This document shows positions 29,587 through 58,914 of a stretch of 64,000 nucleotides of DNA, one piece after another. Source of the stretch: Dechloromonas sp. H13 (GTDB lineage Bacteria; Pseudomonadota; Gammaproteobacteria; Burkholderiales; Rhodocyclaceae); NCBI RefSeq assembly GCF_009469615.1, contig NZ_SSXX01000006.1, positions 62,001 to 126,000 on the forward strand. The letters are read 5' to 3'. Under the pieces are notes generated by a model, which was not told where the DNA came from, ran no database searches, and was given only the letters and a program-made list of their open reading frames with translations. A program made the position numbers and the translations under genes. Numbering within the stretch: the stretch's first letter is position 1; each line of letters opens with the position of its first letter.

Positions 29587-30588
29587 TCAGCGCAATATCA
29601 GCAGGCCGCCAAGGATCAGACCAGCCAGAAACACCGTGTCGACCGCCAGCATCAGTACCGGGCGCCAGCCGAGGCTGGCCAGTTGCTGCAGCGAGGTCTT
29701 GACCCCGAGCGCGGCAATCGCCACGACGAGGCACCAGCGCGACAGGTGGGACGCGGCATCGGTCACCGGCTTGGGAATGATGCCGAGGCTGTTGATCACG
29801 ACCAGAACGGCGAAGCCGATCAGGAAGCCGGGCAGCAGCGGCGGGCGGGCACCGCCCTCGCCGCGCGTGCGGAAGACCAGCGAGAAGACGAGCACGACCG
29901 GCAGCAGCATGGCGACGCGCAGCAGCTTGACAAAGGTGGCGCCATCGCCGACTTCCGGCGAGATCATGTAGCCGGCGGCGACGACCTGGGCGACGTCGTG
30001 GATGGTTCCGCCGAGAAAGACCGACGCCGCGCCGGGATCGAGATCCAGGGCGCGAGCGATAGCCGGGTAGGCGATCATCGCCACCGTCGACAGGGTCGTC
30101 ACGCCGACCACGGTGAACAGCGTGAAACGCTGGTTTTCCTCGTTCTTCGGCATCACCGCGGAGATCGCCAGCGCCGCCGAGGCGCCGCAGATGGCGACGG
30201 CGCCACCGGTGAGCAGGCCCTCGGTCTTCGGCCGGCCAAGCAGGCGGCCGACCAGCGCACCGAAGAGGATGGTCAGCACGACGCCGCCAATCACCATCAT
30301 GATCGGCACGGCACCCAGCCCCGAGATCTGCTCGGCGGTGATGCGGGCGCCGAGCAGCGCGACGCCGAAGCGCAGGATCTGGCGCGACGCGAATTCGATG
30401 CCGGCCTTGACCTTCTCGCCGTTGGCGGCAAAGTTGAACGCCATCCCGAAGAACAGGGCATAGAGCAGCTGTGGCCCGCCCTGGTGTTCGGCGATGAAGG
30501 TCGCGGCCAGCGCAATGGTGATCGCGGTCAGCACGCCCGGCCAGATCACCGGCCAGGCGGGCAGCTGCAGGGCATGGGCGAGTCTCAT
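29587..30588 (-). CDS. YeiH/UPF0324-family membrane protein, putative anion exporter
   Basis: 333 aa with about ten membrane helices. The family cores GGAVAICGASAALAISAV and GGTIHDVAQVVAAGY are clear. Family members have been proposed to export sulfate or sulfonate products; this is weakly established. It starts 9 bp after the MMPL permease gene with GAGGGG upstream, so it looks like the last gene of the DUF1302 operon. That partnership is unusual to me and may be incidental. Confidence 0.85.
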   Translation of the reverse strand: MRLAHALQLPAWPVIWPGVLTAITIALAATFIAEHQGGPQLLYALFFGMAFNFAANGEKVKAGIEFASRQILRFGVALLGARITAEQISGLGAVPIMMVIGGVVLTILFGALVGRLLGRPKTEGLLTGGAVAICGASAALAISAVMPKNEENQRFTLFTVVGVTTLSTVAMIAYPAIARALDLDPGAASVFLGGTIHDVAQVVAAGYMISPEVGDGATFVKLLRVAMLLPVVLVFSLVFRTRGEGGARPPLLPGFLIGFAVLVVINSLGIIPKPVTDAASHLSRWCLVVAIAALGVKTSLQQLASLGWRPVLMLAVDTVFLAGLILGGLLILR

Positions 30589-30597
30589 GCCAGCCCC

Positions 30598-33033
30598 TCA
30601 GCGGCCGAAGCCGCGGGCCTGCGCCGGCGTCTTCAGCAGGAAGTGGGAAAGCGCCGGGATCAGGATCAGCGCGCCGATCATGTTCCACAGGAACATGAAG
30701 GTGAGCAGGATGCCCATGTCGGCCTGGAACTTGATCGGCGACCAGGCCCAGGTGACGACGCCGGCCGCCAGGGTCACGCCAACCAGGGCGACGACCTTGC
30801 CGACGAACTGGATCGAGCGCTTGTAGGCGACGGCCAGCGATGCCCCAGCGCGCTGCTGCGCCAACTGGATGCTCAACAGATAGAGGGCGTAATCGACGCC
30901 GATGCCGACCCCCAGCGCGATGACCGGCAGGGTCGCCACCTTGACACCGATGCCGAGCATCACCATCAGCGCTTCGCAGAGGATGGACGTCAGGATCAGC
31001 GGCACGATGGCGACGACGACCGCGCGCCAGTTGCGGAAGGTGATGAAGCAGAGAGCGATGACCGCGAGATAGACATAGACCAGCATCTCGGTCCAAGCCT
31101 TCTTGACGACGATGTTGGTCGCCGCCTCGATCCCGGCGTTGCCGGCGGCGAGCAGGAACTGGCGCTCCGGCGTCGAGTGCTCCTCGGCGAAGCGGGCCGA
31201 CTCGGCGACCACGCGGCTCAGGGTTTCCGCCCGGTGGTCGCTCAGGTAGGCGATCACCGGCATCACCGAACAGTCGTTGTTGAACAGGTCGGGATTGTTG
31301 ACCGACGCCTGCTGCGCGCCGTAGTTCAGGATGTCCTGGTTGCGCGCCAGCGTCAGCCACTTCGGGCTACCCTCGTTGGAGCCGGCGGTGATCTGGCGCA
31401 CCGCGTTGCCGAGGAAGACCGTCGTCTGGACGCCAGGTAACTGCTGCAGGCCCCAAGCCAGGCGGTCGGCCTCGACCAGGGTCTGGTAGTTGAGGCAACC
31501 TTCGGCCGCCGTCTTGACGATGACCGCGAACTGGTCGCTCGACAGCGAGTAGCTGCCGGAAATATAGGCATTGTCGCGGTTGTAGCGCGAGTCGGCGCGC
31601 AGTTCCGGCGCCCCCTGTTCGAGATCGCCGATCTTGAGCTGCAGGCTGACGATGAAGCCGGCGACCGCCAGAACCAAGGCCACGATGATGGCGCCCAGCG
31701 CCCAGCGCCGTTCGGTGAAACGCTCGAGTCCGCGCCACAGTGCGGCGAAGCCGCCGCGGCCGTCATCCGATTCGGCGCGCAGGCTGCGCTCGGCCGCCGC
31801 CGTGCTGACGCCAGTATAGGAAAGGAGGACCGGCAGCAGGATCAGGTTGGTGAAGATCAGCACTGCGACGCCGAGGCTGGCGGTCAGCGCCAGATCCTTG
31901 ATGACCGGAATGTCGATCACCATCAGCACGGCGAAACCGACGGCATCGGCAAGCAGCGCCGTCATGCCGGCGAGGAACAGGCGGCGGAAGGTATAGCGGG
32001 CGGCGACCAGGCGGTGCGTGCCGCGGCCGATGTCCTGCATGATGCCGTTCATCTTCTGCGCCCCGTGCGAAACGCCGATGGCGAAGATCAGGAAGGGAAC
32101 GAGGATCGAGAACGGGTCGAGCTCGAAGCCGAACAGCGCGACCAGGCCGAGCTGCCAGACGACGGCGACCACCGAGCAGGCGACGACCAGCGCCGTGCTG
32201 CGCAGGCAGCGGGTGTAGAGATAGATGATGGCGATGGCGATGGCGGCGGCGATGGCGAAGAAAGTCATCACCTTGGCCAGACCGTCGATCAGGTCGCCGA
32301 CCAGCTTGGCGAAGCCGATCATGTGGATGCGCACGCCCGGCGCACCGTCCTTGGCGGCACGTTCGAAGCGGTCGCGGATGTTCTCCTCGAGGGCGGCGGA
32401 CAGCGCACGGTAGTCGATCGCCTCGCCGGTCGTCGGATCCTTGTCGAGCAGCGGGACGACGAGCATGCTCGACTTGAAGTCGTTGCCGACAAAGCGGCCG
32501 ACGATGCCGGAGCGGGCGATGTTGAGGCGCAGCTGCTCGGTGGCCTTGGGCGAGCCGTCGTACGAATCGGGCATCACCGGGCCGCCCTGGAAGCCCTCCT
32601 CGGTGATCTCGGTCCAGCGTACCGACGGGGTCCACAGCGATTTCAGCCAGGCGCGGTCGACCCCCGGGGTGAGGAACAATTCGTCGTTGATCTTGCGCAG
32701 CGTCTCCTGGTACTTCGGATCGAAGATGTCGCCGTCGGTGTTCTCGACGACGATGCGCAGCACGTTGCCGAGACCGCGCAACTCGGCGCGGTTGTCGAGG
32801 TAATTCTTGATGTAGGGCTGGCCCTGCGGAATCATCTTCTCGAAGCTGGCATTCAGCGTCAGCCGGGTGGCCGCCCCGAACAGGAGCACCAGGGTGACCA
32901 GTACGCAGACGATGACGACGGCCAGGCGGTTGTTGAAAATCGCCCGTTCGAGGGCAGTCCCCGAGTTGGGGTTGAAGTCGGTCAGGGTTCGCACGATCGG
33001 CATGCGATCCATGAGGTCTGTGGCTACGGCCAT
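30598..33033 (-). CDS. MMPL-type RND transporter permease
   Basis: 811 aa inner-membrane permease of the resistance-nodulation-division superfamily, MMPL branch. Two repeats each have one helix, a large periplasmic domain and about five helices; the second repeat starts near residue 440 (RRWALGAIIVALVLAV). The motif GVGIGVDYALYLLS in the second helix bundle is typical of proton-coupled MMPL/HpnN-like transporters, which move lipids and other hydrophobic molecules. No adaptor or TolC partner is nearby; the DUF1302 and DUF1329 proteins may supply the outer parts. Confidence 0.9.
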   Translation of the reverse strand: MAVATDLMDRMPIVRTLTDFNPNSGTALERAIFNNRLAVVIVCVLVTLVLLFGAATRLTLNASFEKMIPQGQPYIKNYLDNRAELRGLGNVLRIVVENTDGDIFDPKYQETLRKINDELFLTPGVDRAWLKSLWTPSVRWTEITEEGFQGGPVMPDSYDGSPKATEQLRLNIARSGIVGRFVGNDFKSSMLVVPLLDKDPTTGEAIDYRALSAALEENIRDRFERAAKDGAPGVRIHMIGFAKLVGDLIDGLAKVMTFFAIAAAIAIAIIYLYTRCLRSTALVVACSVVAVVWQLGLVALFGFELDPFSILVPFLIFAIGVSHGAQKMNGIMQDIGRGTHRLVAARYTFRRLFLAGMTALLADAVGFAVLMVIDIPVIKDLALTASLGVAVLIFTNLILLPVLLSYTGVSTAAAERSLRAESDDGRGGFAALWRGLERFTERRWALGAIIVALVLAVAGFIVSLQLKIGDLEQGAPELRADSRYNRDNAYISGSYSLSSDQFAVIVKTAAEGCLNYQTLVEADRLAWGLQQLPGVQTTVFLGNAVRQITAGSNEGSPKWLTLARNQDILNYGAQQASVNNPDLFNNDCSVMPVIAYLSDHRAETLSRVVAESARFAEEHSTPERQFLLAAGNAGIEAATNIVVKKAWTEMLVYVYLAVIALCFITFRNWRAVVVAIVPLILTSILCEALMVMLGIGVKVATLPVIALGVGIGVDYALYLLSIQLAQQRAGASLAVAYKRSIQFVGKVVALVGVTLAAGVVTWAWSPIKFQADMGILLTFMFLWNMIGALILIPALSHFLLKTPAQARGFGR

Positions 33034-33080
33034 CGCTGGGTTCTCCTGTCTCTGCTTTTTGGTATGGGTGTTCTGCTTGC

Positions 33081-34157
33081 TTACTGGATGGCCTGGGTGC
33101 GCACGCCGCGGGCGCCGACCATCACTGTGCCTTCGCGACCGAGGCAGGCGACCGCCGAGGCCGGGCTGGCCTGCTCGACCTTGACCGGGCGGAAGCTGGC
33201 GCCGGCATCGTCGCTGACCAGCACACGTCCGGCCTGGCTGACGAGGACGAGGCGCTTGTCGCCGCAGCTGGTGGCGCCGGTGATGCCGTCCTGCAGGCCG
33301 GTCTCGACCTTTTTCCAGGTCTTGCCGCCATCGCTGCTGCGGAAGGCGTGGCCGCGCAGGCCATGCACCAGGACCGCGCCATCACCGCCGGCAAGGCCGA
33401 AGAAACTGCCCTTGTAGCCGGTGTCGAGCGCGACGAAACGGTTGCCGCCGGCATCGAGCTTCAGCACGGTGCCCTGCTCGCCGGCGATGTAGAGCGCGCC
33501 GCCAACCTGGCGGATGGCGTAGAGGTGCAGGCGGGACGGGTTCTCGGTGCGGTGGAACCACGGTTCCCAGGTCTTGCCTCCATCGGCGGTGCGAAAGATC
33601 TGGTTGAATGCGCCAACGATGAAGCCGTTGTTCTCATCGGCGAACCAGACGTCGAGAAAGGCGTTCTCGGCCCCCTGGGCGCCGATGCGCTTCGTTTCGT
33701 CGACCAGTGCCGCGGCGCGGTCGGCCGGGCCAAGGGAACCCTTCGCGGCCTCGGCCGCGTAGAAGTTGGCCATCAATTCGCCGGCGCTGCGCCCGTCGAG
33801 CTGGCGTGTCCAGGTGGCGCCGCTGTCGGCGCTGTGCAACACGACGCCGTCGTGGCCGACCGCCCAGCCCTTGGCCGTCGTCGGGAAATATACCGCCACG
33901 AGATCGGAGCTGACCGGCACCTTCGCCTGCGTCCAGGTCTTGCCACCGTCGTCGGAAAGAACAATGTGGCCGCGCTGGCCGACGGCGACGATGCGCTGCC
34001 CGGCATTGGCGACGCCGTTGAGCAGCGACTTCGCCGCGAAGGCGCTGTCGCGCGCCGGGGTGTCGAGGACGTCGCGGTAGCTCGCGGCGGCGGAGGCTAC
34101 CAGGGGCAGCGTCAGAACGAACGCAAGGAGCGGAGGAACGATCTTCCGGAAAGTCAT
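33081..34157 (-). CDS. Periplasmic YCF48/BNR-type beta-propeller protein
   Basis: 358 aa with a Sec signal peptide (MTFRKIVPPLLAFVLTLPLVASAAA). The mature part is a beta-propeller made of sialidase-like Asp-box repeats: SDDGGKTWTQ, SADSGATWTR, TADGGKTWEP, SSDGGKTWKK and SDDAGASFRP. Related to Ycf48, a photosystem assembly factor, but here in a transporter cluster, so probably an assembly or docking factor. It lies 47 bp before the MMPL gene. An internal terminator-like hairpin precedes it. Confidence 0.85.
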   Translation of the reverse strand: MTFRKIVPPLLAFVLTLPLVASAAASYRDVLDTPARDSAFAAKSLLNGVANAGQRIVAVGQRGHIVLSDDGGKTWTQAKVPVSSDLVAVYFPTTAKGWAVGHDGVVLHSADSGATWTRQLDGRSAGELMANFYAAEAAKGSLGPADRAAALVDETKRIGAQGAENAFLDVWFADENNGFIVGAFNQIFRTADGGKTWEPWFHRTENPSRLHLYAIRQVGGALYIAGEQGTVLKLDAGGNRFVALDTGYKGSFFGLAGGDGAVLVHGLRGHAFRSSDGGKTWKKVETGLQDGITGATSCGDKRLVLVSQAGRVLVSDDAGASFRPVKVEQASPASAVACLGREGTVMVGARGVRTQAIQ

Positions 34158-34171
34158 GGCTTGCCTTGTCG

Positions 34172-34208
34172 AAAAAGGGGCCGGTTGCGGGGTCGACCGC
34201 AACCGGCC
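34172..34208 (-). terminator. Internal terminator/attenuator hairpin between DUF1329 and YCF48 genes
   Basis: Minus strand: perfect 12-bp stem (34208-34197 with 34190-34179), a 6-nt loop, then CCTTTTTC. It has the form of a strong intrinsic terminator inside the operon, 14 bases after the DUF1329 stop. Some read-through or a second promoter is needed for the three downstream genes. Confidence 0.8.
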
Positions 34209-34221
34209 TGGTGGGGAGGAA

Positions 34222-35568
34222 TTACCGGATGCCGGCGCCGGCCAGCGCGTCGGGTGACCAGTCGCGTTCCGACGCCGGCTTGCCCTGGCGGACGCCGCCG
34301 GTTTCAGCGGTGTAGCCGGACAGCGAGTAGGAACCGGCGATCAGGTCGTACAGGCCATGCATGTCGGCCCACGGCGCCGACGCCTCGTAACTCGGGGTCT
34401 GGTAGGCGAAGCCGGCACGGAACAACTGGCCGCGCGCGTCGTACTGGTCGGAGGCCAGGATGGTCCAGGAATCCTCATCGATGTAGAAGGTGCGCTTGCT
34501 GTAGATGTGGCGCTTGCCCTCGCGCAGCTTGGCCTCGACGACCCAGACGCGGTGCAGTTCCCAGCGGACTTGATCCGGATTGATGAACTTCGGCTTCAGG
34601 AGGTCATCCTTGTTGGAGGCGAAGGCCATGCGGTAGGTGTTGTACGGGACGTACATTTCCTTCTTGCCGACCAGATTGAAGTCGAAGCGGTCCATCGAGC
34701 CGAGGAACAGGAAGACGTCGTCGAAGGTCGAGGTGCCGCCGGTGCCCGGGTTCGGGGTGTCGAAGGCGAAATCCGGGGCGATCTTGACGCGACGCTGACC
34801 GGGCAGGTACTGCCAGGCACGGCGGTCGCTGGTTGCGTAGTCGAGCGGATCGATGATCATCATCGCCTCGCCGGCACGGCGGGCCGGACCGGTATAGGTG
34901 ATGCGCTGCTTGTAGGAAACGCCCGAATCGGCCTTGCCGCTATCCCAGTACGGATATTCCTGGACGATCGAACCTTCGGTCGACACGGACGGACGGCCCG
35001 ATGCGTCGATGTTCCAGTTGCGGTACTTGACGTTGTAGGCGACGCCCTGGAAACGGACGAGGTGGTTCCACATCACTTCGTAGCCGGTCTTGGGGATCGG
35101 GAACGGGATGCCGGCATGACAGCCTTCCATCGAGCGGCCGCCGTTCGTGGTCTTGGCCGACGTCGCGCACTTGGCCGTATTGTCGGCAACCCACTTGGGA
35201 TAGGCGACGCTGCGCTGGGTCGGGTAGACGTCGATCCGGTAATCCGGATTCTTCTTCATCAGCGCCTTGGTGCCTTCGGTCAGCTTGTCAGCGTATTTGT
35301 CCATGTTCTTGGCGTCGACTGCGAACAACGGCTTGTCGGCGGCGAACGGGTCGGGACGCAGGCCGTCGCCGGCCTTGAATTCGGCCGGGGCCTTGGTCAG
35401 GCCGCCGGCGTAGGCCGGAATCGAGCCGTCCTTGTTACCGGCCTTCTCGGCGCCGGTGGCGGTCAGGGTGGTGCCGAGCTGCTTGGCTTCTTCGGCGCTG
35501 ACGCCGGCCAGGGCGGCGCCCGAAACGGACGTCAGCGCAGCAATCAGAAGGGTTTTTTGAAATCGCAT
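34222..35568 (-). CDS. DUF1329 periplasmic protein (LolA/LolB-like fold family)
   Basis: 448 aa with a clear signal peptide (MRFQKTLLIAALTSVSGAALA). Members of DUF1329 are predicted to have a lipoprotein-carrier-like fold able to hold a hydrophobic molecule; this is family-level inference. Visible conserved segments: GKDGSIPAY-like GNKDGSIPAYAGGL near the N-terminus, RRAWQYLPGQRRVK and WELHRVWVVEAKLREGKRHIYSKR in the second half. Eleven bp downstream of DUF1302, its constant partner. Confidence 0.85.
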   Translation of the reverse strand: MRFQKTLLIAALTSVSGAALAGVSAEEAKQLGTTLTATGAEKAGNKDGSIPAYAGGLTKAPAEFKAGDGLRPDPFAADKPLFAVDAKNMDKYADKLTEGTKALMKKNPDYRIDVYPTQRSVAYPKWVADNTAKCATSAKTTNGGRSMEGCHAGIPFPIPKTGYEVMWNHLVRFQGVAYNVKYRNWNIDASGRPSVSTEGSIVQEYPYWDSGKADSGVSYKQRITYTGPARRAGEAMMIIDPLDYATSDRRAWQYLPGQRRVKIAPDFAFDTPNPGTGGTSTFDDVFLFLGSMDRFDFNLVGKKEMYVPYNTYRMAFASNKDDLLKPKFINPDQVRWELHRVWVVEAKLREGKRHIYSKRTFYIDEDSWTILASDQYDARGQLFRAGFAYQTPSYEASAPWADMHGLYDLIAGSYSLSGYTAETGGVRQGKPASERDWSPDALAGAGIR

Positions 35569-35579
35569 GAGTTGTCTCC

Positions 35580-37355
35580 TCAGAACGTGGTTTTAAGGGT
35601 CAGGCTGATGAAGTCACGATCCTTCAGCAGCGAGGTGAAGCCGTTTTGCGTGATGTTCTCGGCGCCCAGCGCACCGCTGGCACCGTAGTCGTTGATGCGG
35701 CCGAAGTAGCCGATGTACTTGAGATCGACGCGGTGCTTCTGGAAGATGTCGAAGCCGAGGCCGACGCTGAAGTTGCCGTTGCCCTGGTTGCCGCCAAAGG
35801 TCGTCGCCGCGTTGCCGCTCAGACCAATCGAAAAGGTCATCGGCGCCGACATGTCGACCCCGGGCATGACCTGGTACCAGGTCGGCGTGAAGCTGGCGCC
35901 CATGCCGACGTAGTTCTTCGTCGCGCAGCCGTCCCACTTGTCGCCGGCCTGGGCCGTCGGCTTGTTGAAGGTACAGCCCTTGTAGCCGACCGCCTGGAAG
36001 GTTTCGGCGCCGCTGGTGACGTCGAGCCACTGGCTCCACACCAGTTCGAGCGCCCAGGTGGCGGCATCGAAGACCGGCGTGTCGGGCAGGATGCCGACCG
36101 CGTTGACCAAACCGTGCATCGTGTTGCCGCGCGGACCGGTCGTCTCGCCTTCGCTCGGCGCCGGCACGTTGAACGGGTTGGTGCCCGGCACGCCGAGGAT
36201 CTTGGCCAGCAGCGGGGTGTTGTGGCGATACGAGAGTTCGCCGCCGAAGCTGATGCCGCCGATGTTCTTGGCCAGGCTGATGCCGTAGAGGTCGACGCCG
36301 TCCGCGTAGATCAGGTTGTACTGGCTGGCGCTGGCGACCGGCACGAACTGCCCGTTGGGCAGGCGCACCAGCCGCTGGCTGGTGACCAGGCCCTGCGGCA
36401 GCTTGTCGGCAAAGCGGCGGTAGTAGACACCGACGGTGCCGTCGAGCGCGTCCGGCGACCAGCGGGCGTTGAGGCCGAATTCGCCGTTGCGCTGGGCCGG
36501 CTCGAACGCATTGCCGCGGGTATAGCCGACGCCGGGCGCCAGCAGGATGCGCTCGGGGCCGTTGAAGGCGAAGTCGACTGGACCGAGGTAGGTGCCGCCT
36601 TCCGGGAAGCGGTACGGTTCCCATTCCAGGAAATACTGGGCCGCCAGCGAGAGGTTGTCGGTCACCTGCACCTGGCCGGACACCTGGTTCAGGGGACGGA
36701 ACAGTTCCTTGGCCTCGACACCCGGCGTCGCGAAGCCCTTCTGCAGGTCGAGCGGCATCTGCGAATAGGAAATGCCGTGCAGGGCGCCGCCGAGGAACAG
36801 GGACTCGCCCCAGAACACGGTGTGGCGGCCGGCGCGCACCTTGGTGGGCACGTCGCCCACATCGAAGTTGGCGAAGACGAAGGCGTCGAGGATCTCGCCG
36901 GACGGGCCGCGATAATACTGTTCGACGTAGGGGCTGAACACCTGGTTCGGGTAGCTGGAAATGCCGGCCCGGGCGAACTTGGGATTGGCGCCGCTGGCCG
37001 TGCCGTAGGCACCATCGCCCCAGGCCGCGCCGCTGACGCGGAAGCCGAGCATCTTCTTCCAGGCGAAGTCGAACTCCGAGAAGAGGTCGAGACGGTTGGT
37101 GACGAGATCGCCCTTGTCGAACAGGTAGGTGCCTTCGTCCGAAGCGATGTTGTTGCCGATCAGGTTGCTGCGGTTCTTGACGCGCACAGCGGCGTTGTAG
37201 CGGACGGTGGTGTCCAGGCGCATTTCGATATCGTCGTTGCCGACGTCGATGTTGAATGCCAGGGCGTTGCCGCCGGCGCCGAACATGGTCGCCAGCGCGA
37301 ATGCGATCGGGCGGATCTGCTTCCAGCCTTGGCCTTGTCTCTCCATGGTGGTCAT
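35580..37355 (-). CDS. DUF1302 outer-membrane beta-barrel protein
   Basis: 591 aa with signal peptide ending in GGNALA before FNIDVGNDDIEMRLDTTVRYN. Alternating polar/hydrophobic strands, GRHTVFWGES, and a C-terminal strand ending in Phe (SLTLKTTF) as in BAM substrates. DUF1302 proteins are porin-like and accompany DUF1329 in degraders of hydrophobic compounds. First gene of the operon; AAGGAAGGAAGAC precedes the ATG at 37355. Substrate unknown. Confidence 0.85.
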   Translation of the reverse strand: MTTMERQGQGWKQIRPIAFALATMFGAGGNALAFNIDVGNDDIEMRLDTTVRYNAAVRVKNRSNLIGNNIASDEGTYLFDKGDLVTNRLDLFSEFDFAWKKMLGFRVSGAAWGDGAYGTASGANPKFARAGISSYPNQVFSPYVEQYYRGPSGEILDAFVFANFDVGDVPTKVRAGRHTVFWGESLFLGGALHGISYSQMPLDLQKGFATPGVEAKELFRPLNQVSGQVQVTDNLSLAAQYFLEWEPYRFPEGGTYLGPVDFAFNGPERILLAPGVGYTRGNAFEPAQRNGEFGLNARWSPDALDGTVGVYYRRFADKLPQGLVTSQRLVRLPNGQFVPVASASQYNLIYADGVDLYGISLAKNIGGISFGGELSYRHNTPLLAKILGVPGTNPFNVPAPSEGETTGPRGNTMHGLVNAVGILPDTPVFDAATWALELVWSQWLDVTSGAETFQAVGYKGCTFNKPTAQAGDKWDGCATKNYVGMGASFTPTWYQVMPGVDMSAPMTFSIGLSGNAATTFGGNQGNGNFSVGLGFDIFQKHRVDLKYIGYFGRINDYGASGALGAENITQNGFTSLLKDRDFISLTLKTTF

Positions 37356-37424
37356 TACTTTGTCTTCCTTCCTTATTTGATGAATTACTGAAAGAGATGC
37401 GTCTTCCGACTGCTTCGGGAATGG

Positions 37425-37496
37425 ATTATCCGGAGGCTGTTCACCAGCACCCCCCCCAAAAAGCGGGGGATGGGGAGTTGCACGGGGGGGATGCGC
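37425..37496 (-). promoter_or_regulatory. Putative activator-dependent promoter with two MalT-box-like repeats
   Basis: Minus-strand GATAAT (37430-37425) lies about 70 bases before DUF1302 and lacks a -35 hexamer. Upstream, read on the plus strand, are GGGGATGGGG (37466-37475) and GGGGATGCGC (37487-37496), starting 21 bp apart. The known MalT box is GGGGA(T/G)GAGG. A C-run/A5/G-run hairpin (37451-37469) overlaps the first box. Confidence 0.5.
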
Positions 37497-37629
37497 GGTC
37501 GCGCAAATGGGGGCCTTGGGGGGCGCTGGAGACCGGCCGGGAAACCGTCAGACGAGGAGGCGCGCCAGCCGCCGAACCCGCCTTTCAGCCGATCCGGGCC
37601 GCGCGCTCTCCGGCCGCCATGCGGCAGAT

Positions 37630-37664
37630 CAGGGCATTTTTGCCCTGAAAAAGCGGTCGACCGC
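37630..37664 (-). terminator. Dyads after the MalT-type regulator gene
   Basis: Minus strand: palindrome GCGGTCGACCGC (37664-37653) followed by TTTTT, then the hairpin CAGGGCA-AAAA-TGCCCTG (37647-37630). The first could end the regulator transcript; the second may be an operator. The rest of 37497-37806 is GC-rich non-coding sequence with no convincing gene. Confidence 0.45.
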
Positions 37665-37806
37665 AGCGATCGGTGCGGAAACGAAAATGTGCTGAACCGG
37701 CGTCGGCTGCCGGCCTGTCGCCGGCTGACGGGCGCTACCGCCGACCCGCGCGGGCCGGCACCGGGACGTTCAGCGCGCGCGGATCAGGCGCCGGCGTCGG
37801 GCGCAC

Positions 37807-40509
37807 TCAGTCGCTGCCTTCGAGGAGGCCGAGCAGTTGCGCGCGGCGCACAGCGTGCTTGCGCGTGCCGGCGTCGAGTTTGCCGAACAGGTTTTTCAGG
37901 TGCCATTTGATCGTCTCCTCGCCAACCGACATCGCCTGGGCGATTTCCTTGTTGGAAAGGTTGCGGGCGAGGAACTCGAGCACCTCGCGCTCCTTGGGGG
38001 TCAGGACCATGCTCGGCACCGCCCGCGGCGCGCCGGCCTCGCGCGCCGGACGCGGCCGCACGGCGCGCGGCACCTGGACGGCACCCGGCGCCCCGCTGCC
38101 GCCCCCCTCCTCGTCGACCAGGCGACGCATCAGGTCGGCGATGATCGGGTGGGCATCGACGAAGGTCCGCGCCAGCCCGAAGGTCTGCGCCAGGTTCATC
38201 GCCTCCAGCATCAACGGACGCCCGTTCTCGCCCTGGCGTTCGAGGGCAAAGGCGCGCAGGGCCATGACCTCGATACGCAGGCGCCCGAGCTTCATCGTGT
38301 CGGCCAGCGCCACTGCCGGCGCCAGGCGGTTGAGGGCCGCCTGCCAGTCCTGGGCGGCGATCGCCACGTTGGCATGGGAGATGATCTGCAGCAGCGCCAC
38401 CGAGCGATGCCACAGCGAACCTTCCGGATGGCCGCTCTGCGCGATGATCTCGTCGATGCGATCGGCCAGCACCCGGCAGGTTTCGCTGCGGAACTTGCCG
38501 GCATGGATGCGCACCTGGTCGGCCAGGCTGGCGACGATCAGCCGCGGCAGATGACGTTCGACACCGACGGCGCCGAGCGCTTCGAGCAGGTCGATGGCGC
38601 GATGCTCGATGCCCTGGGCGGCGGCGATGCGCGCCACCGTGCGGTAGGCGAACAGCGCCGTCTCGGGGGCACCGAATCGTTCGAGGACGTCCAGCCGGTT
38701 GGCCAGCAGCGCGGCCGCCTCGTCCAGCCGGTCGCGCTCGTAGACGGCGACGGCGAGCAGCGCCGCCAGCATGCAGGCCTGCGGGTGGCGGCGGCCGAGT
38801 TCGGACTCGGCACGCGTCAGCGCCGGCCGCAGCGTTTCCTCGCCGAGCAGCACCTGGCCTTCCCAGATGTAGCTGAGTCCGGTGACGAACTCCCCCCAGC
38901 GGCCCGCATAGACGTGGCTCTTGCCGAGATTTCCGCGCGGAACATGCTGCAGGCAGCGCCGCGCCTGCGCCGGGTCGCCCTTGAGGATGGAGAGGATCGC
39001 CTGGCGATTGGCGTGCATCTGGAGCAGGCGCGACTCGCGCGACGGTGGCGCGTCGGCCCACGGCTCGAAGAGGGTGGCGCAGCGGTCCGGCTCGTCGGCG
39101 AAGTAGGCGGCGCCGCTGAGGATCAGGGCGCACTCGTAGCGCAGGTGGCTGTCGACATCCGGATTTTCAAGAATGCGGGCGACCAGCCGCCCTGCTTCCT
39201 CCTGCCGCTCGCTGAGGGCCAGCGCCCAGGCCGCGGCCAGGCGCAATTGCGGGCGGCTGTCGAGATCGGCCTCGGGCAGATCGTCGAGCCATTCGAGCAC
39301 GGTGCCGTGGTAACCCTGGGTCACCGCGTCGTACATGCAGCGCTCGGCCATGTCGTAAGCCTGCTGGCGCTGCCCGGCAGCATGCGCATGGCGCGCCGCC
39401 TCCTGGAGCATGCCGCGTCCGGACAGCCATTCCATGGCTCGCAGGTGCAGGTCGGCCAGCTCCGCTTCCGGCAAACCGGCGAGCCGCTGGCGCAGGGCAT
39501 CGCGCGCCAGGGCGTGCAGGCGGAACCATTCGCCATCATCGCCGACCATGAAGATCGGCGTGTCGCCCGCCAGGCGGGCAAGTTGCTCCGGCGCATCGGC
39601 GCGCCCGAGCAGGGCGCAGCACAGGTCGGGATGCAGCATGTCGACCACCGAGACGCGGACGAGAAAGTCGACGTCCCCGGGGGCAAGATGGTCGAGCAGG
39701 CCGCCGACCAGCTGCTCGCTGCGCCCTTCGTTGCGCGCCAGCATGATGTTGATGGCGACCCCCGGATCGCCCCACCCCTCGACCGCGGCCAGCGCCAGCT
39801 GCAGGCCGAGCGGCCAGCCCTCGGTGATCTCGTGCAGCCGCGCGCAGGCGTCGGCATCCACATTGGGGCCGAAACGGTTGCGCATGAAGGCGATCGTTTC
39901 GTCGAGACTGAAGCGCAGGATCTCCGGCCCCACCGAAACGCAATCACCGTAGGCAGTCAGATCGGCCAGGGCGTCGTACATGTCGCCGCGCCCGGCGATG
40001 ATCGCGCGCAGATTGGGTGGCAGGTTGTGCAGCAGGTAGACCAGCGTCGCGAAGTTGCGGGATGGAAGACGTTCCGCCTCGTCGACGATGAGCACCATGT
40101 CGAGCGAGGTCTGCGCCACCTCGGCCAGCCACGCGGTAATGCCCTCCAGCTCGCCCCCCGGGGCGCCCCCGCCTTCAAGAAAATAGCGTCCAAAGGCCGG
40201 TCGACCGCAACCGACACGCACTGCGAGGGTCAGGGCGTGCAGGAAATGCTGCGGGTCCTCGTGATCGTCGGCGGAAATCCAGGCCACCGCCGCCCCGCGC
40301 GCCAGATGCTCGCGCCGCCACTGGCCGAGCAGCGAAGTCTTGCCGAACCCCGCCGGCGCCTGCACCACCAGGACCGGTCGATCGCGGAACTGCTCGGCGT
40401 CGAGGCCGAGGCGCGGCCGCAACAACTGGTGCCGCGGCGCCCTTGGCGGCGTGGTGCGGAGAACGAGTCCGGACGTCATGGCGCCGGCCTGGCGGAGTGC
40501 GGTGGTCAT
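37807..40509 (-). CDS. MalT-type LuxR-family transcriptional regulator (STAND ATPase)
   Basis: 900 aa. An N-terminal nucleotide-binding domain has Walker A QAPAGFGKTSLLGQW near residue 50 and a Walker B-like MVLIVDEAERL near 140. A long helical TPR-type sensor follows (about 370-800), then a Pro/Arg linker and a C-terminal LuxR helix-turn-helix (LTPKEREVLEFLARNLSNKE). This is the MalT architecture: an inducer and ATP drive oligomerisation and promoter activation. It lies upstream of, and on the same strand as, the DUF1302 operon, its likely target. An ATG at 40479 is an alternative start. Confidence 0.9.
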   Translation of the reverse strand: MTTALRQAGAMTSGLVLRTTPPRAPRHQLLRPRLGLDAEQFRDRPVLVVQAPAGFGKTSLLGQWRREHLARGAAVAWISADDHEDPQHFLHALTLAVRVGCGRPAFGRYFLEGGGAPGGELEGITAWLAEVAQTSLDMVLIVDEAERLPSRNFATLVYLLHNLPPNLRAIIAGRGDMYDALADLTAYGDCVSVGPEILRFSLDETIAFMRNRFGPNVDADACARLHEITEGWPLGLQLALAAVEGWGDPGVAINIMLARNEGRSEQLVGGLLDHLAPGDVDFLVRVSVVDMLHPDLCCALLGRADAPEQLARLAGDTPIFMVGDDGEWFRLHALARDALRQRLAGLPEAELADLHLRAMEWLSGRGMLQEAARHAHAAGQRQQAYDMAERCMYDAVTQGYHGTVLEWLDDLPEADLDSRPQLRLAAAWALALSERQEEAGRLVARILENPDVDSHLRYECALILSGAAYFADEPDRCATLFEPWADAPPSRESRLLQMHANRQAILSILKGDPAQARRCLQHVPRGNLGKSHVYAGRWGEFVTGLSYIWEGQVLLGEETLRPALTRAESELGRRHPQACMLAALLAVAVYERDRLDEAAALLANRLDVLERFGAPETALFAYRTVARIAAAQGIEHRAIDLLEALGAVGVERHLPRLIVASLADQVRIHAGKFRSETCRVLADRIDEIIAQSGHPEGSLWHRSVALLQIISHANVAIAAQDWQAALNRLAPAVALADTMKLGRLRIEVMALRAFALERQGENGRPLMLEAMNLAQTFGLARTFVDAHPIIADLMRRLVDEEGGGSGAPGAVQVPRAVRPRPAREAGAPRAVPSMVLTPKEREVLEFLARNLSNKEIAQAMSVGEETIKWHLKNLFGKLDAGTRKHAVRRAQLLGLLEGSD

Positions 40510-40658: not shown

Positions 40659-40687
40659 CCCCCCCTTTTTCGAGGGGGGAAAAAGGC
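40659..40687. promoter_or_regulatory. Competing hairpins between the regulator and Rieske genes
   Basis: A C7-T5-CGA-G6-A5-GG run. CCCCCC can pair with GGGGGG, or CCTTTTT can pair with AAAAAGG; the two are mutually exclusive. It lies 54 bases before the Rieske gene. The other part of the 231-bp gap shows nothing definite. Confidence 0.45.
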
Positions 40688-40740: not shown

Positions 40741-41049
40741 ATGAAACTTGTCGATGTCTGCGCAGTGGAAGAGATCCCGCCGGGCAAGTCACGCGCGGTG
40801 CGTGCCGAAGGCCGGGATATCGCCCTGTTCAACGTCGACAGTCGCGTCTACGCCATCGAGAACAGCTGCCTGCACCAGGGCGCCGCGCTGAGCGGCGGCC
40901 AGCTGTGCGGCCACACGGTGACGTGCCGGGCGCACGGCTGGCGTTTCGACGTGACGACCGGGAAGCTCGGTAGTTCGCAGTGTCTGGGCGTCGCGTCCTT
41001 CCCGGTCGAGATTTCCGGTGACAGGGTCCTCGTCACCATCGGCAACTGA
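40741..41049 (+). CDS. Rieske [2Fe-2S] ferredoxin-like protein
   Basis: 102 aa soluble single-domain Rieske protein. Cluster ligands C43 and H45 (CLHQGA) and C62 and H65 (CRAHGW) are complete. No signal peptide, so cytoplasmic; it probably donates electrons to an oxygenase, or resembles the small subunit of nitrite reductase. First gene of the ten-gene plus-strand run, 34 bp before the UspA-hemerythrin gene. Confidence 0.88.
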   Translation: MKLVDVCAVEEIPPGKSRAVRAEGRDIALFNVDSRVYAIENSCLHQGAALSGGQLCGHTVTCRAHGWRFDVTTGKLGSSQCLGVASFPVEISGDRVLVTIGN

Positions 41050-41083: not shown

Positions 41084-42106
41084 ATGTATCGACATCTGCT
41101 GGTCCCCATCGAAAACTCCGATCTGTCCACCGTGACCATCGGCCGCGCCGTCGAGTTCGCCCTGGCGCTCGGCGCCCGGATCACCTTCTTCCACGCCAGC
41201 GCCGATCACTCGGCGTCGATCACCGGCGACGCCGAGATCGTCCGCATGACGGCGCCGGAAGATTACGCCTACAACTTCGCCGGCCGCGCCCGCGAACTGC
41301 TGACCAAGGCCGAATCGGCGGCGCGCGCCCGCGGCGTGCCCTGTTCGTCGGCGAGCACGGTCAGCGATTCGCCTTACACCGCGATCGTAGCCGCAGCGCG
41401 CGCCGCCGGCTGCGACCTCATCTTCATGGCGTCGCACGGCCGGCGCAGCACGCTCGGCATGATGCTCGGCTCGCAGACGCTGAAGGTCCTCACCCATTCC
41501 GAAATCCCGGTCCTCGTCTCGGCGATGGCCGAACCGCCGGTTCCGGCCCAGGCCATCGGCATCATCCGCGACGAGCACCGTTCGCTGGCCGCCGTCCTGC
41601 ATGCCTGGCAGCACCTGTTCAAGGATGCGCAGGGCAAGGGCGTCCAGCCCGATGCGGCGCTGATGCAGGCGATGGTCCATTACATCCAGGCCTTCCCGGT
41701 CGCCCTGCACCACCCGAAGGAAGACGACTACCTGTTCCGCAAGCTGCGCGAGCGCACCGCCGAGGCCAACCCGGAACTCGACGAACTCGAGCGCCAGCAC
41801 GTTCGCGACGAACAGCAGGTCATCGAACTGGCAGCGCTGGTCGACCGCTACGCCAGCGGCGCGGCGACCGTCGCCGAAGTCGAACAGGCGGTCTCGCACT
41901 ACTCGCAGGCGATCTGGGAACACATGGGCCGCGAGGAAGGCGTGATCCTGCCGCTGGCACAACGCTACCTGACGGTGGAGGACTGGACGGAAATCAACGA
42001 GGCCTTCCAGAAGAACATGGACCCGCGTTTCGGCGGCGACACCGACGCCGAATTCAAGCGGCTGTTCTCGCGCATCGTCAATCTGGCCCCGTCATCCGCG
42101 AACTGA
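41084..42106 (+). CDS. UspA - hemerythrin HHE fusion protein
   Basis: 340 aa with two domains. Residues 1-150 are a universal stress protein with the nucleotide-binding motif ASHGRRSTLGMMLGSQT. Residues about 160-310 form a hemerythrin-like HHE helical bundle with iron-ligand candidates in IRDEHRSL, ALHHPKEDDYLF, ERQHVRDEQQ and EHMGREEGVILP. It could sense or scavenge oxygen or NO and link this to stress control; inference only. ACAGGAAT precedes the ATG at 41084. Operon member. Confidence 0.85.
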   Translation: MYRHLLVPIENSDLSTVTIGRAVEFALALGARITFFHASADHSASITGDAEIVRMTAPEDYAYNFAGRARELLTKAESAARARGVPCSSASTVSDSPYTAIVAAARAAGCDLIFMASHGRRSTLGMMLGSQTLKVLTHSEIPVLVSAMAEPPVPAQAIGIIRDEHRSLAAVLHAWQHLFKDAQGKGVQPDAALMQAMVHYIQAFPVALHHPKEDDYLFRKLRERTAEANPELDELERQHVRDEQQVIELAALVDRYASGAATVAEVEQAVSHYSQAIWEHMGREEGVILPLAQRYLTVEDWTEINEAFQKNMDPRFGGDTDAEFKRLFSRIVNLAPSSAN

Positions 42107-42153: not shown

Positions 42154-43134
42154 TTGGAAAAAGCAATACGCTTCCATCAGACCGGCGGCCCGGAAGTCCT
42201 CAAGCTCGAAGAGGTCAGCGTCGGCGAGCCGGGACCGGGCGAAGTCCGCCTGCGCCACGTCGCGGTCGGCCTCAACTTCGCCGACACCTACTTCCGCAAC
42301 GGCACCTACCCGATCCCCCTGCCCGCCGGCATGGGCGTCGAGGCGGCCGGCGTGGTCGAAGCCGTCGGCCCGGGCGTGAGCAACGTCGCCGTCGGCGACA
42401 AGGTGACCTACACCGGCTTCCTCAACACCCTGGGCGCCTACAGCACCTCCCGCATCATCGCCGCCGCGCCGCTGATCCGCCTGCCGGAAGGCATCAGCTG
42501 CGAAACCGCTGCCGCCATGACCATGCGCGGCCTGACCTCGGCCTACCTGATGCGCCGCATCCACGACTTCAAGGCCGGCGACACCATCCTGCTGCACGCC
42601 GCCGCCGGCGGCGTCGGCCTGATCGTCTCGCAATGGGCCAAGCTGCTCGGCCTGCGCGTCATCGGCACCGTGTCCACCGAGGAGAAGGCAGCCGTTGCCC
42701 GCGCCCACGGCTGCGACGAGATCATCAACTACAGCCACGAGGATGTGGCGAAGCGCGCCCGCGAATTGACCGACGGCGTCGGCGTCAATGTCGTCTTCGA
42801 CAGCGTCGGCAAGAGCACCTTCATGGCCTCGCTCGATTCACTCAAGCGGCGCGGCCTGCTGGTCTGCGTCGGCACCGCCTCGGGCCCGATTGACGCCTTC
42901 AACCCGCAACTGCTGGCGATGAAGGGTTCGCTCTACCTGACCCGCCCGGCGCTCGCCGACTACATCGCCGACCCAGCCGAGAAGGCCGAGCTGGCCGGCG
43001 AGATCTTCGGCCACGTCGCAGCCGGGCGCATCAAGATCGAGATCAACCAGCGCTACGCGCTGGAAGACGCCGTGCAAGCCCATCGTGACCTCGAATCGCG
43101 CAAGACGACCGGGTCATCAATTTTCGTAATTTAA
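42154..43134 (+). CDS. NADPH:quinone oxidoreductase (zinc-free MDR family)
   Basis: 326 aa medium-chain reductase of the QOR type, starting EKAIRFHQTGGPEVLKLEEV. Cofactor loop HAAAGGVGLIVSQWAK near residue 150; no structural zinc Cys cluster. Reduces quinones or alpha,beta-unsaturated carbonyls with NADPH. The start is TTG at 42154 behind a good CAGGAG site, with no ATG available; this may limit expression. 20 bp before tauD-like gene. Confidence 0.88.
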   Translation: MEKAIRFHQTGGPEVLKLEEVSVGEPGPGEVRLRHVAVGLNFADTYFRNGTYPIPLPAGMGVEAAGVVEAVGPGVSNVAVGDKVTYTGFLNTLGAYSTSRIIAAAPLIRLPEGISCETAAAMTMRGLTSAYLMRRIHDFKAGDTILLHAAAGGVGLIVSQWAKLLGLRVIGTVSTEEKAAVARAHGCDEIINYSHEDVAKRARELTDGVGVNVVFDSVGKSTFMASLDSLKRRGLLVCVGTASGPIDAFNPQLLAMKGSLYLTRPALADYIADPAEKAELAGEIFGHVAAGRIKIEINQRYALEDAVQAHRDLESRKTTGSSIFVI

Positions 43135-43154: not shown

Positions 43155-44012
43155 ATGAGAATCGAACAACTGACCTGCGCCGTCGGCGCCGAACTGATCG
43201 ACGTCAATCTCGGCGATGCCGTGCGCGACGACGGCCTGTTCAACGAGATCTACGCCGCGCTGCTCAAGCACAAGGTACTGTTCCTGCGCGACCAGACGCT
43301 GGACAGGCTGTCGCGCGTCGATCACATGGCCTTCGCCCAGCGCCTCGGCGAACTCGAAACGCACCCGATGGCCCCGAGCCATCCGGAGGCACCCGGCCTC
43401 GTCCAGATCTACAAGAATCCGGACAGCCCGATGGACCGCTACGAGAACGCCTGGCACACCGACGGCACCTGGCGCGAGACGCCGGCGCTCGGCTGCGTGC
43501 TGCGCTGCATCGAGTGCCCGCCGGTCGGCGGCGACACGATGTGGGCCAACATGGTGCTGGCCTACGAGAAGCTGCCGGAATCGGTCAAGCAGGAAATCGA
43601 CGGCCTGATCGCCAGCCACAGCTTCAATTCCTCCTTCGCCGCCGCGATGCCGCAGGACAAGCGCCTGGCGATGAAGGCCCAGTATCCGGATGCCGAACAT
43701 CCGGTCGTGCGCACCCACCCCGAGACCGGCGAGAAGGTCCTCTTCGTCAATGCCTTCACGACGCACTTCGTCAATTACCACACCCCAAAGCGCGTCCGTT
43801 TCGGCCAGGACTACAACAAGAGCGGTTCCGACCTGATGCAGTACCTGATCAGCCAGGCCTACAACCCCGAGTACCAGGTGCGCTGGCGCTGGAAGCCATA
43901 CAGCATGGCGATCTGGGACAACCGCTCGACGCAGCACTACGCGGTCATGGACTACCCGCCGTGCCACCGCAAGATGGAACGCGCCGCCATCATCGGCGAC
44001 AAGCCCTTCTAA
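43155..44012 (+). CDS. TauD/TfdA-family Fe(II)/2-oxoglutarate dioxygenase
   Basis: 285 aa. Iron triad H101/D103 (AWHTDGTW) and H261 (STQHYAVMDY); R276 (HRKMERAAI) would bind 2-oxoglutarate. TauD/TfdA enzymes hydroxylate sulfonates, phenoxyacetates, carnitine precursors and other small acids; the substrate here is not readable. Placement before a BKACE suggests it prepares a beta-hydroxy or keto acid. 80 bp gap to the next gene. Confidence 0.9.
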   Translation: MRIEQLTCAVGAELIDVNLGDAVRDDGLFNEIYAALLKHKVLFLRDQTLDRLSRVDHMAFAQRLGELETHPMAPSHPEAPGLVQIYKNPDSPMDRYENAWHTDGTWRETPALGCVLRCIECPPVGGDTMWANMVLAYEKLPESVKQEIDGLIASHSFNSSFAAAMPQDKRLAMKAQYPDAEHPVVRTHPETGEKVLFVNAFTTHFVNYHTPKRVRFGQDYNKSGSDLMQYLISQAYNPEYQVRWRWKPYSMAIWDNRSTQHYAVMDYPPCHRKMERAAIIGDKPF

Positions 44013-44092: not shown

Positions 44093-45157
44093 ATGAATTT
44101 CCTCGACGGTTCCCTCTTCCCCGAAAACCAGCAAAAGCTCGTCATCACCTGCGCCCCCTACGGGCCGGAGTGGATGCCTTCCGATTTCCCGGAGGACATC
44201 CCGGTCACCATGGAAGAGCAGATCCAGAAGGCGGTTGATTGCTACAACGCCGGCGCCACCGTGCTGCACGTGCATTGCCGCGAACTCGACGGCAAGGGCT
44301 CGAAGCGCCTGTCCATGTTCAACGAACTGCTGGCCGGCATCCGTGCCCGCGTGCCGGACATGATCCTGCAGGTCGGCGGCTCCATCTCCTTCGCGCCGGA
44401 AAGCGACGGCGAGGCCGCCAAGTGGCTGTCCGACGACACTCGCCACATGCTGGCCGAGCTGACTCCGACGCCGGACCAGGTCACCATCGCCATCAACAGC
44501 AACCAGATGAACGTCGTCGAGCAGATGTGCGAAGCCGACGTCGCCGGCACCTCGCTGGGCGAACCGGAGATGTACCGCGCCTACCGCGAGATGACCATCC
44601 CGGCCGGTCCGGAGTGGGTCGAGGAGCATATCCGCCGCCTCTCCGCCAAGGGCATCCAGACGCACTTCCAGTTGGCCAACATCACCCAGTTGGAAACCGT
44701 CGAGCGCATGATGCGCCGCAATGTCTGCAACGTGCCGCTGATCCTGACCTGGGTCGCCATCGGCGGCGGTTTCGATGCCCCGAACATCTACAACCTGGCC
44801 AACTTCGTCCGCGCCTGTCCGGACGGCTCGGTGCTGACGCTCGAAACCTCGATGCTCAACGTCCTGCCGATCAACATGATGGCGATCGCCATGGGCCTGC
44901 ACGTCCGTTGCGGCATCGAGGACAACATCTGGACCCAGGACCGTTCGCGCAAGATGACCACGGTCGAGCAGATCGAGCAACTGGTGCGCATCGCGAAGGA
45001 ATTCGGCCGTCCGGTCGCCAACGGCAAGGAAGCCCGCGAAATCTACAAGATCGGCACCTTCTACAAGGACGCCGACGAGACCCTGGCGGCCAACGGCTTC
45101 GCGCCGAACCGCAAGCCGGGTCAGATTGGCTTCACGCACTACGCCAAGGCCGCCTGA
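44093..45157 (+). CDS. BKACE (DUF849) beta-keto acid cleavage enzyme
   Basis: 354 aa zinc-dependent Claisen-type enzyme: a beta-keto acid plus acetyl-CoA gives acetoacetate plus a new acyl-CoA. Metal ligands H59 and H61 (VLHVHCRE) and the C-terminal GIEDNIWTQDRSRKMTTVEQIEQL segment are typical. It is longer than the usual 275-310 aa, with an extended middle (NITQLETVERMMRRNVCNVP). Strong AAGGAG site before ATG 44093. The substrate class cannot be assigned by eye. Acetoacetate formed could be used by the AACS encoded five genes downstream. Confidence 0.85.
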   Translation: MNFLDGSLFPENQQKLVITCAPYGPEWMPSDFPEDIPVTMEEQIQKAVDCYNAGATVLHVHCRELDGKGSKRLSMFNELLAGIRARVPDMILQVGGSISFAPESDGEAAKWLSDDTRHMLAELTPTPDQVTIAINSNQMNVVEQMCEADVAGTSLGEPEMYRAYREMTIPAGPEWVEEHIRRLSAKGIQTHFQLANITQLETVERMMRRNVCNVPLILTWVAIGGGFDAPNIYNLANFVRACPDGSVLTLETSMLNVLPINMMAIAMGLHVRCGIEDNIWTQDRSRKMTTVEQIEQLVRIAKEFGRPVANGKEAREIYKIGTFYKDADETLAANGFAPNRKPGQIGFTHYAKAA

Positions 45158-55248: not shown

Positions 55249-55271
55249 TTGCTGTCTCCTGTTTGAATTGT

Positions 55272-56468: not shown

Positions 56469-56489
56469 TTCTTTCTCTCCTCTGCCCGC

Positions 56490-58889: not shown

Positions 58890-58914
58890 GATGTTCTCCG
58901 AATGGATGTTCCGG

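Follow-up and report, generated by a model that had tools for sequence, protein, structure and literature searches.

An AmeABCD-type envelope cassette joined to a YeiH-family gene and a TauD/BKACE operon in Dechloromonas sp. H13, with a possible role in organosulfur metabolism

Background

Gene sets for DUF1302, DUF1329 and YCF48 proteins together with an MMPL permease recur across the Proteobacteria, with monoterpene and Tween 20 phenotypes and no agreed substrate class or direction of transport. The closest described system is AmeABCD of Castellaniella defragrans, which consists of DUF1302, DUF1329, COG4447 and HAE3 resistance-nodulation-division (RND) proteins encoded in that order, and whose deletion, according to the available parts of the report by Puentes-Cala and Harder (PMC6394551), decreased monoterpene tolerance and increased Nile Red accumulation, with export being the proposed function; its composition and organisation are stated there to be conserved across the lineage. 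In Pseudomonas putida, PP_0765, PP_0766, PP_2018 and PP_2019 were required on Tween 20, and co-folding suggested that the DUF1329 protein makes weak contact with each of its two membrane partners, as the accessible text of the Foldy paper (PMC10866462) has it. Similar gene sets are described for an ORM2 benzene degrader and among aromatic regulons, and a Delftia mutant lacking a DUF1329 gene is said to grow less well on phenanthrene (PMC13101534, PMC6449761, both in part). The present analysis concerns a 64,000-nucleotide stretch of the Dechloromonas sp. H13 genome (the window; contig C58, whole genome 3.66 Mb), in which four such genes (A to D) are followed by a YeiH-family gene (E) and preceded by the gene of a MalT-type regulator, beyond which a divergent operon encodes, among others, a TauD-like dioxygenase and a beta-keto-acid cleavage enzyme (BKACE). 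The novelty lies in the attachment of YeiH, the TauD/BKACE operon and a shared inverted repeat to an AmeABCD-type cassette, not in the core itself, and from the company of these genes it seems, with modest confidence, that the cassette has been recruited into the import and degradation of an amphiphilic sulfonate or sulfate ester, the sulfite being removed by YeiH.

Judged by protein families and gene order (i.e. adjacent genes for DUF1302, DUF1329, YCF48/COG4447 and RND proteins, arranged as in AmeABCD), the core is of the AmeABCD type and hence of an already characterised kind. The first-pass annotation of the window had called it uncharacterised, which does not hold, because phenotypes are published both for AmeABCD (upon deletion of this set, which has the same gene order) and for the P. 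putida set. The locus also shares with AmeABCD its setting in a catabolic island, the likeness being judged by families and order, whereas YeiH, the MalT-type regulator with its inverted repeat and the TauD/BKACE operon are additions of the window; monoterpene genes were not recognised among the annotated genes. The P. putida set similarly includes a periplasmic and an RND-type efflux protein besides DUF1302 and DUF1329, but is encoded at two separate loci (by locus tag), and the available parts of PMC10866462 mention no link to YeiH or TauD. The 'Nanopod' cluster of ORM2 brings together porin-like, DUF1329, universal stress, YCF48 and MMPL proteins, although in an anaerobic benzene setting and, in the available parts of PMC13101534, with no mention of YeiH or TauD. 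In the accessible parts of the literature on DUF1302/DUF1329 proteins no link of the cassette to organosulfur compounds was found, and among the matches listed for DUF1302/DUF1329 or BKACE in combination with TauD and sulfonate there was no such cluster by title or start of abstract.

Results

Apart from its PF03601 match (Table 1; curated cut-off 24.5), E has 8 hydrophobic segments at a lax threshold and 34% identity to E. coli YeiH, and it scores 139.7 bits against the YeiH subfamily model TIGR00698, below the cut-off of 232.6. Among 150 genomes of the family, five carry YeiH of the window type (at least 71% identity), at 6 places that are all directly downstream of D. Xsc (sulfoacetaldehyde acetyltransferase) adjoins 7 of the next 11 relatives in the same genomes (50-61% identity), with the copy in L156 scoring 1087 bits (cut-off 676) and the six others being identified by tblastn; four of the seven are near full length, two are cut by contig ends and one, in L161, is without its middle. 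The latter copy (L161:8279-9303, genome G261) misses the region matching L156 residues 103-400 and looks broken, while the adjoining YeiH is kept. Another of the 11 relatives (61% identity) adjoins dehydrogenase genes and a pair consisting of a galactarate/altronate-dehydratase-type protein and a 93-amino-acid partner with no Pfam match, which we take to be SuyAB-like from the features of that family; the L-sulfolactate dehydrogenase model scores 218 there, below its cut-off of 500. One further relative adjoins TauD-BKACE-MFS (major facilitator superfamily) genes, and the remaining two (L164, starting at a contig edge, and L160) have no neighbour assignment.

In a tree of YeiH proteins, in which long branches were flagged, the row of the SuyAB-linked gene among them, the window branch joins that SuyAB-linked gene (96/91) and then the Xsc group (100/100); the cassette-linked YeiH of Pseudomonas and Comamonadaceae fall outside this grouping. 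In the available parts of two reports, sulfite resistance in Salmonella is driven chiefly by yeiH (PMC12880088) and SuyZ/YeiH is argued to export sulfite to the periplasm (PMC11582611). The window protein shares PF03601 with this SuyZ/YeiH family of putative sulfate (sulfite) exporters (PSE, 2.A.98) and branches with YeiH found beside SuyAB-like and Xsc genes, but its gene lies within a transporter operon and not beside a sulfo-lyase. Judging by these relations, E is likely a sulfite exporter. That it would form a layer of an envelope-spanning machine, as had been supposed at first, is not supported by the same family relations, its closest relatives mostly adjoining organosulfonate enzymes. 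A Sox operon (soxC, soxY, soxZ, soxA and soxX) is present elsewhere in the own genome (L180, C36:67000-76000), with SoxC sulfite dehydrogenase scoring 610 bits (cut-off 420), and SoxC exceeds its cut-off in 5 of the 15 cluster-bearing genomes searched. The own-genome SoxC is 74% identical to that of the P. aeruginosa H15 plasmid described below.

The TauD-like dioxygenase scores 475.7 bits against PDB entry 5vn6 (labelled taurine dioxygenase there) versus 197.6 against E. coli TauD, and has the PF02668 fold with the His-Asp-His and Arg residues of the TauD/TfdA superfamily. Equivalents of E. coli H70, H99, D101, T126, H255, R266 and R270 are present in all 21 close copies (the window's included), those of F159 and F206 in 20, and S158 is Ser in 19 and Thr in two. 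The equivalent of Y73 is Ala, Val or Leu in the 21 copies, and that of N95 is Glu in a MAFFT alignment, where a gapped stretch makes this assignment dependent on the alignment. We take H70 and R270 to bind the sulfonate in TauD, and Y73 and N95 to shape the rest of the pocket. Like TauD/AtsK-type dioxygenases, the window enzyme thus keeps PF02668, the metal ligands and the anion-site residues, but with Y73 and N95 replaced and 255.7 bits against the taurine dioxygenase model NF007104 (cut-off 313); the reading as a true taurine dioxygenase was rejected on this score and the change at Y73. TauD of the window type (at least 75% identity) was found in 8 of the 150 family genomes, in six within ~13 kb of DUF1329, in one ~22 kb away and in one on a 5.2-kb contig. 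All five genomes with window-type YeiH are among these eight, for which the chance is 9e-8 if kinship is ignored.

The wider survey comprised 140 loci, i.e. 60 regions drawn from the many DUF1329 matches in 150 genomes of the order and 150 of the family, and the 80 named GTDB loci with the best DUF1329 relatives of the window, a sample that is neither random nor independent. Cassette genes were detected by tblastn (E at most 1e-15); gene calls outside this BLAST-confirmed core come from a codon-usage caller and may be off (YeiH was missed in L160). Of these loci, which had been selected by their DUF1329 match, 118 had B, C and D detected together and 101 had all of A to D, with A being the most divergent. 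The grouping is therefore not due to chance, and the first-pass annotation was right in taking the outer-membrane, periplasmic and RND genes for a conserved set. Cassettes with a D of at least 65% identity (69 loci, or 67 with a coverage filter) had TauD, YeiH or a PF00884 sulfatase within ~10 kb in 35 of 69 cases, versus none of the 51 with a D below 65% (Fisher 2.6e-11, kinship uncorrected); this comparison left out 20 loci with no D match, two of them with sulfatases, and used a sulfatase profile built from clusters present in the surveyed loci. Sulfatase genes flank cassettes in Pseudomonas and in a small number of further genomes, at some of these loci together with genes for GMC oxidoreductase, aldehyde dehydrogenase and CoA-transferase, and on a plasmid of P. 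aeruginosa H15 the order A-D-YeiH is accompanied by sulP, soxC, cytochrome c, sulfurtransferase and three TauD/TfdA genes.

The regulator scores 216.1 against the MalT equivalog model, far below the cut-off of 537; MalT orthology was rejected on this score, leaving a MalT-like architecture only. As had been proposed from the window alone, a MalT-type gene (GerE, TPR_MalT) is indeed linked to the cassette: a regulator of 59-89% identity is found in 14 of 136 loci examined, and in Azonexus, Dechloromonas, several family genomes and Dyella it is followed by the cassette, either directly or after a few genes. An inverted repeat, CCCC-N9-GGGG, is present at both promoters of the window. It was discovered by k-mer comparison of 12 loci and the window, and recurs in all five Dyella loci outside that set. 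Counted in 136 of the 140 loci within 450 bp upstream of A (or of B where there is no A; four loci with no called DUF1329 gene or less than 200 bp upstream were dropped), the repeat occurs in 14/14 loci with a regulator of at least 58% identity (0.6 expected from shuffles), in 3/8 with a regulator of 35-57%, in 11/46 with a D of at least 65% and no such regulator, in 1/51 with a D below 65%, and in 2/17 with neither D nor regulator. The lone distant locus with the repeat, L146, holds a 64-amino-acid piece of a 61% regulator at a contig edge. With a looser spacer (5-9) the repeat is found at 14 of 17 regulator promoters besides the window's; it is missing from both regions of L151 (one of two copies on plasmid pAZKH, see below) and from the regulator promoters of L014 and L040. 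Its arms are conserved and its core is variable. The MalT-type regulator may bind this repeat.

The bare pattern is not specific, as the window has four matches (two sites, each counted twice) versus 2.49 expected, and the whole genome has five per strand versus two for the reversed control. The other repeats in the genome lie inside an open reading frame (ORF), between a thiolase gene and a 441-amino-acid frame, and between convergent ORFs; the second of these (L178:6105-6122, C5-N7-G5) stands in what by eye is a phenylacetate-type cluster.

Discussion

From these relations we infer a substrate class, an order of reactions and a direction of transport. The anion would enter via A, and B (with C) would carry it to D and onward towards the cytoplasm, possibly with an MFS protein. 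The TauD-like dioxygenase would then oxidise the sulfur-bearing carbon, giving sulfite (or sulfate), after which YeiH would move sulfite to the periplasm, and SoxC, encoded elsewhere in the genome, could oxidise it. The carbon skeleton would become a beta-keto acid and pass through BKACE and acetoacetate-CoA ligase to beta-oxidation; the acetoacetate expected from BKACE could go to acetoacetate-CoA ligase here, and elsewhere to a CoA-transferase, genes for which are found beside YeiH. Both operons would be driven by the MalT-type regulator via the CCCC-N9-GGGG operator. More tentatively, and with considerable reserve, one could envisage a dedicated outer-to-inner-membrane import route for anionic amphiphiles (fatty or otherwise hydrophobic sulfonates or sulfate esters), made up of an inward-running AmeABCD-type RND cassette, a sulfite exporter in the same operon, a desulfonating TauD-like neighbour and a MalT-type regulator acting on a shared operator, with the whole close AmeD subfamily serving sulfated or sulfonated substrates. 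The latter would explain the TauD, YeiH and sulfatase neighbours.

Several observations weigh against an organosulfur substrate. About half of the close cassettes (34 of 69) have no TauD, YeiH or sulfatase within ~10 kb, and TauD and YeiH occur together in only 5 of the 140 loci (17 with YeiH, 15 with TauD; p=0.02), a count in which the flanks stop short of TauD in L041, L042 and L045. Five Dyella loci (L074, L075, L076, L077 and L081) have the regulator, B to D, TauD and BKACE, with no DUF1302 or YeiH detected within the locus, and the Dyella genomes hold YeiH relatives of only 29-31%; similarly, L014 (G067) has the regulator, A to D and TauD, while the best YeiH match in its genome is 28%. 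In L073, L121 and L138, which have TauD and no adjacent YeiH, a YeiH of 54-57% is encoded elsewhere in the genome, two of these genomes also having SoxC. BKACE is not a sulfonate enzyme, and the residues kept from TauD are not sulfonate-specific, the equivalents of H70 and R270 being shared by PlaO1, which scores 170.6 bits against the window enzyme. The published related cassettes, in the parts of these reports that are available, concern monoterpenes, Tween 20, phenanthrene, benzene and aromatics, with no sulfur compounds.

It could be that the locus is merely an AmeABCD-type system for tolerance or efflux of a hydrophobic catabolic substrate free of sulfur (a terpenoid, hydrocarbon or fatty acid), in which YeiH would export anions in an accessory role and the TauD-like enzyme would be a hydroxylase of sulfur-free compounds. 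Some members of the TauD family, PlaO1 for one, do act on sulfur-free substrates, and FadD-like ligases and beta-oxidation genes lie nearby, but the YeiH branch goes with Xsc and SuyAB-like genes, and YeiH stands directly downstream of D at all six close places. The loss of monoterpene tolerance and the rise in Nile Red accumulation upon AmeABCD deletion (PMC6394551, in part), as well as the ties of related cassettes to aromatic or benzene metabolism, argue for such a system, whereas the sulfatases and SulP that recur near related cassettes (and soxC, once) do not fit it, and altogether it seems rather unlikely. Sterols or fatty acids as the default substrate were likewise set aside, as no sterol genes were recognised among the annotated genes and the YeiH branch points to sulfur; instead of the fatty acid, sterol or lipid that had been suggested at first, the linked genes point to a sulfonate or sulfate ester, possibly a fatty-chained one.

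That the A-D-YeiH transporter operon and the TauD/BKACE operon are two independent neighbours, sharing a regulator by accident of position, is improbable: six loci of Variovorax and Ramlibacter have YeiH apart from D, and L153 and L154 show a TauD-type gene without a cassette in the sequence covered, but the arrangement is kept in Azonexus and Dechloromonas, on pAZKH and, apart from DUF1302 and YeiH, in Dyella, and the same operator is present at both promoters. Even less probable is a pathway for quaternary ammonium or carnitine-like compounds, in which TauD would act as a gamma-butyrobetaine-type hydroxylase and BKACE would cleave dehydrocarnitine. Carnitine metabolism does involve BKACE and enzymes of the TauD fold, and BKACE is conserved beside the TauD gene; this route was nevertheless set aside, since none of the conserved genes was recognised as a carnitine dehydrogenase (the FadB-like neighbour in L014 being far below those models), and, moreover, a hydrophilic substrate would not require A to D and YeiH would be left unexplained. 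With recruitment for an amphiphilic sulfonate or sulfate ester as the favoured reading, one subfamily of these widespread sets now receives a specific question, i.e. whether it carries sulfonates or sulfate esters. If so, an RND-based envelope system would be connected with the degradation of sulfur amphiphiles, surfactant-like or natural, a branch of YeiH and a branch of TauD would gain a function, and the regulator-operator pair could be used to recognise the pathway in other genomes.

Core proteins and neighbouring genes

The six same-strand ORFs proposed by the first-pass annotation (29587-40509) are all present on the minus strand where it had placed them, with core-gene Pfam matches that all exceed curated cut-offs (Table 1). 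Its genes thus stand, while its boundary was too narrow, the linked genes running past the regulator to ~51.1 kb. The gaps are 451 nt between the LuxR-type regulator gene and A, 11 between A and B, 64 between B and C, 47 between C and D, and 9 between D and YeiH. The nearest named relatives of the DUF1329 protein are from Azonexus (98%) and Dechloromonas (92% and 83%), and the own genome has a single DUF1302 and a single DUF1329 match.

Table 1. Positions in the window of the cassette, the regulator, the repeats and the linked genes, with the evidence for each assignment
Feature	Position	Strand	Evidence
E, YeiH/PSE-family, organosulfonate-linked branch, predicted sulfite exporter	29587..30588	-	PF03601 229.5 bits; neighbours of relatives; tree
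D, AmeD-like HAE3-like RND/MMPL permease	30598..33033	-	PF03176 55.3 bits
C, AmeC-like exported YCF48/BNR propeller	33081..34157	-	PF14870 (PSII_BNR) 87.1 bits
B, AmeB-like DUF1329 periplasmic LolA-like protein	34222..35568	-	PF07044 473.7 bits; AlphaFold
A, AmeA-like DUF1302 outer-membrane porin-type beta-barrel	35580..37355	-	PF06980 385.1 bits; AlphaFold
Operator-like inverted repeat upstream of A-D-YeiH operon (C5-N7-G5)	37452..37469	.	motif comparison
MalT-type STAND/LuxR regulator	37807..40509	-	GerE 54.1 bits, TPR_MalT 50.2 bits
Operator-like inverted repeat between regulator and divergent operon	40661..40678	.	motif comparison
Rieske [2Fe-2S] protein	40741..41049	+	PF00355 69.9 bits
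Universal stress protein-hemerythrin HHE fusion	41084..42106	+	PF00582, PF01814
Quinone-oxidoreductase-like protein	42154..43134	+	NF008024 362.8 bits, above cut-off 348
TauD-like Fe(II)/2-oxoglutarate dioxygenase, predicted C-S or C-O-S cleavage	43155..44012	+	PF02668 205.8 bits
BKACE, beta-keto-acid cleavage enzyme	44093..45157	+	PF05853 212.1 bits, cut-off 24.8
MFS transporter	45282..46598	+	PF07690 153.5 bits
Small serine (alpha/beta) hydrolase	46616..47179	+	PF06821 154.7 bits
Second MFS transporter, Bcr/CflA-like	47218..48402	+	PF07690 106.9 bits; TIGR00710 144.7, below cut-off 200.9
DsbA-like protein	48413..49087	+	PF01323 97.1 bits
Acetoacetate-CoA ligase	49142..51115	+	TIGR01217 819 bits, above cut-off 520.9
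Acyl-CoA ligase, FadB-like, thiolase, acyl-CoA dehydrogenase genes	53455..60561	-	profile matches

The N-termini of A, B and C look signal-peptide-like, and for C the start at 34157, which gives such an N-terminus, is more likely than that at 34202. Outer-membrane barrels typically end in Phe, as does A, whose AlphaFold model (pLDDT 82.9) has the porins chitoporin, OccK and OmpF as top matches (target-normalised TM ~0.5-0.56). The model of B (pLDDT 88.5) is LolA-like (0.84 for 9tp6 and 0.76 for 4z48, with LolA3 among the matches), in line with an extra LolA_like match of 35.3 bits in Pfam. D has 12 hydrophobic segments, which, like the termini of A, B and C, agrees with its assigned location, and scores below the cut-offs of both its best NCBIfam match, TIGR00921 (143.5 bits, cut-off 351.9), and the HpnN hopanoid-transporter model TIGR03480 (69.3 bits, cut-off 751.85). 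In a sequence search of solved structures HpnN was the sole match of D (E 3.8e-5), and DUF1302, DUF1329 and YeiH had none at the limits used. D is furthermore asymmetric, as D714-Y715 in its second half is invariant in 110/110 aligned proteins, and the first half has an invariant S322-H323 and Gln326 at what looks like the matching position.

Where the flank suffices, the usual order of the divergent genes is (Rieske), universal-stress/hemerythrin, quinone-oxidoreductase-like, TauD-like, BKACE, MFS and serine hydrolase, to which the window adds the second MFS, DsbA-like and acetoacetate-CoA ligase genes. Plasmid pAZKH of Azoarcus KH32C has two cassette copies with a PSE gene, one of which reads ligase-A-D-PSE-CoA-transferase, accompanied by the regulator and by divergent genes that run from universal-stress to hydrolase and include no Rieske, DsbA or acetoacetate-CoA ligase gene. 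These two copies (L150 and L151) stand in different catabolic settings, one of them with a TauE/SafE gene ~10 kb away and 2-hydroxyacyl-CoA dehydratase genes in its vicinity. In L063, L064 and L065 the universal-stress/hemerythrin fusion lies directly beside cassettes of more distant subfamilies (D ~61%), and may thus accompany the transporter more generally.

The block at 53455..60561, also seen beyond the divergent operon in L169 and L171, probably serves downstream beta-oxidation, its association with the cassette being weaker. Between the acetoacetate-CoA ligase and these genes (51619-53291) lie a PAS histidine kinase and a LuxR-type response regulator, a pair that adjoins the block in L169 too. 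Outside the window, at G000:C58:162996-164528, there is an acyl-CoA-ligase-like reading frame with one internal stop in the match.

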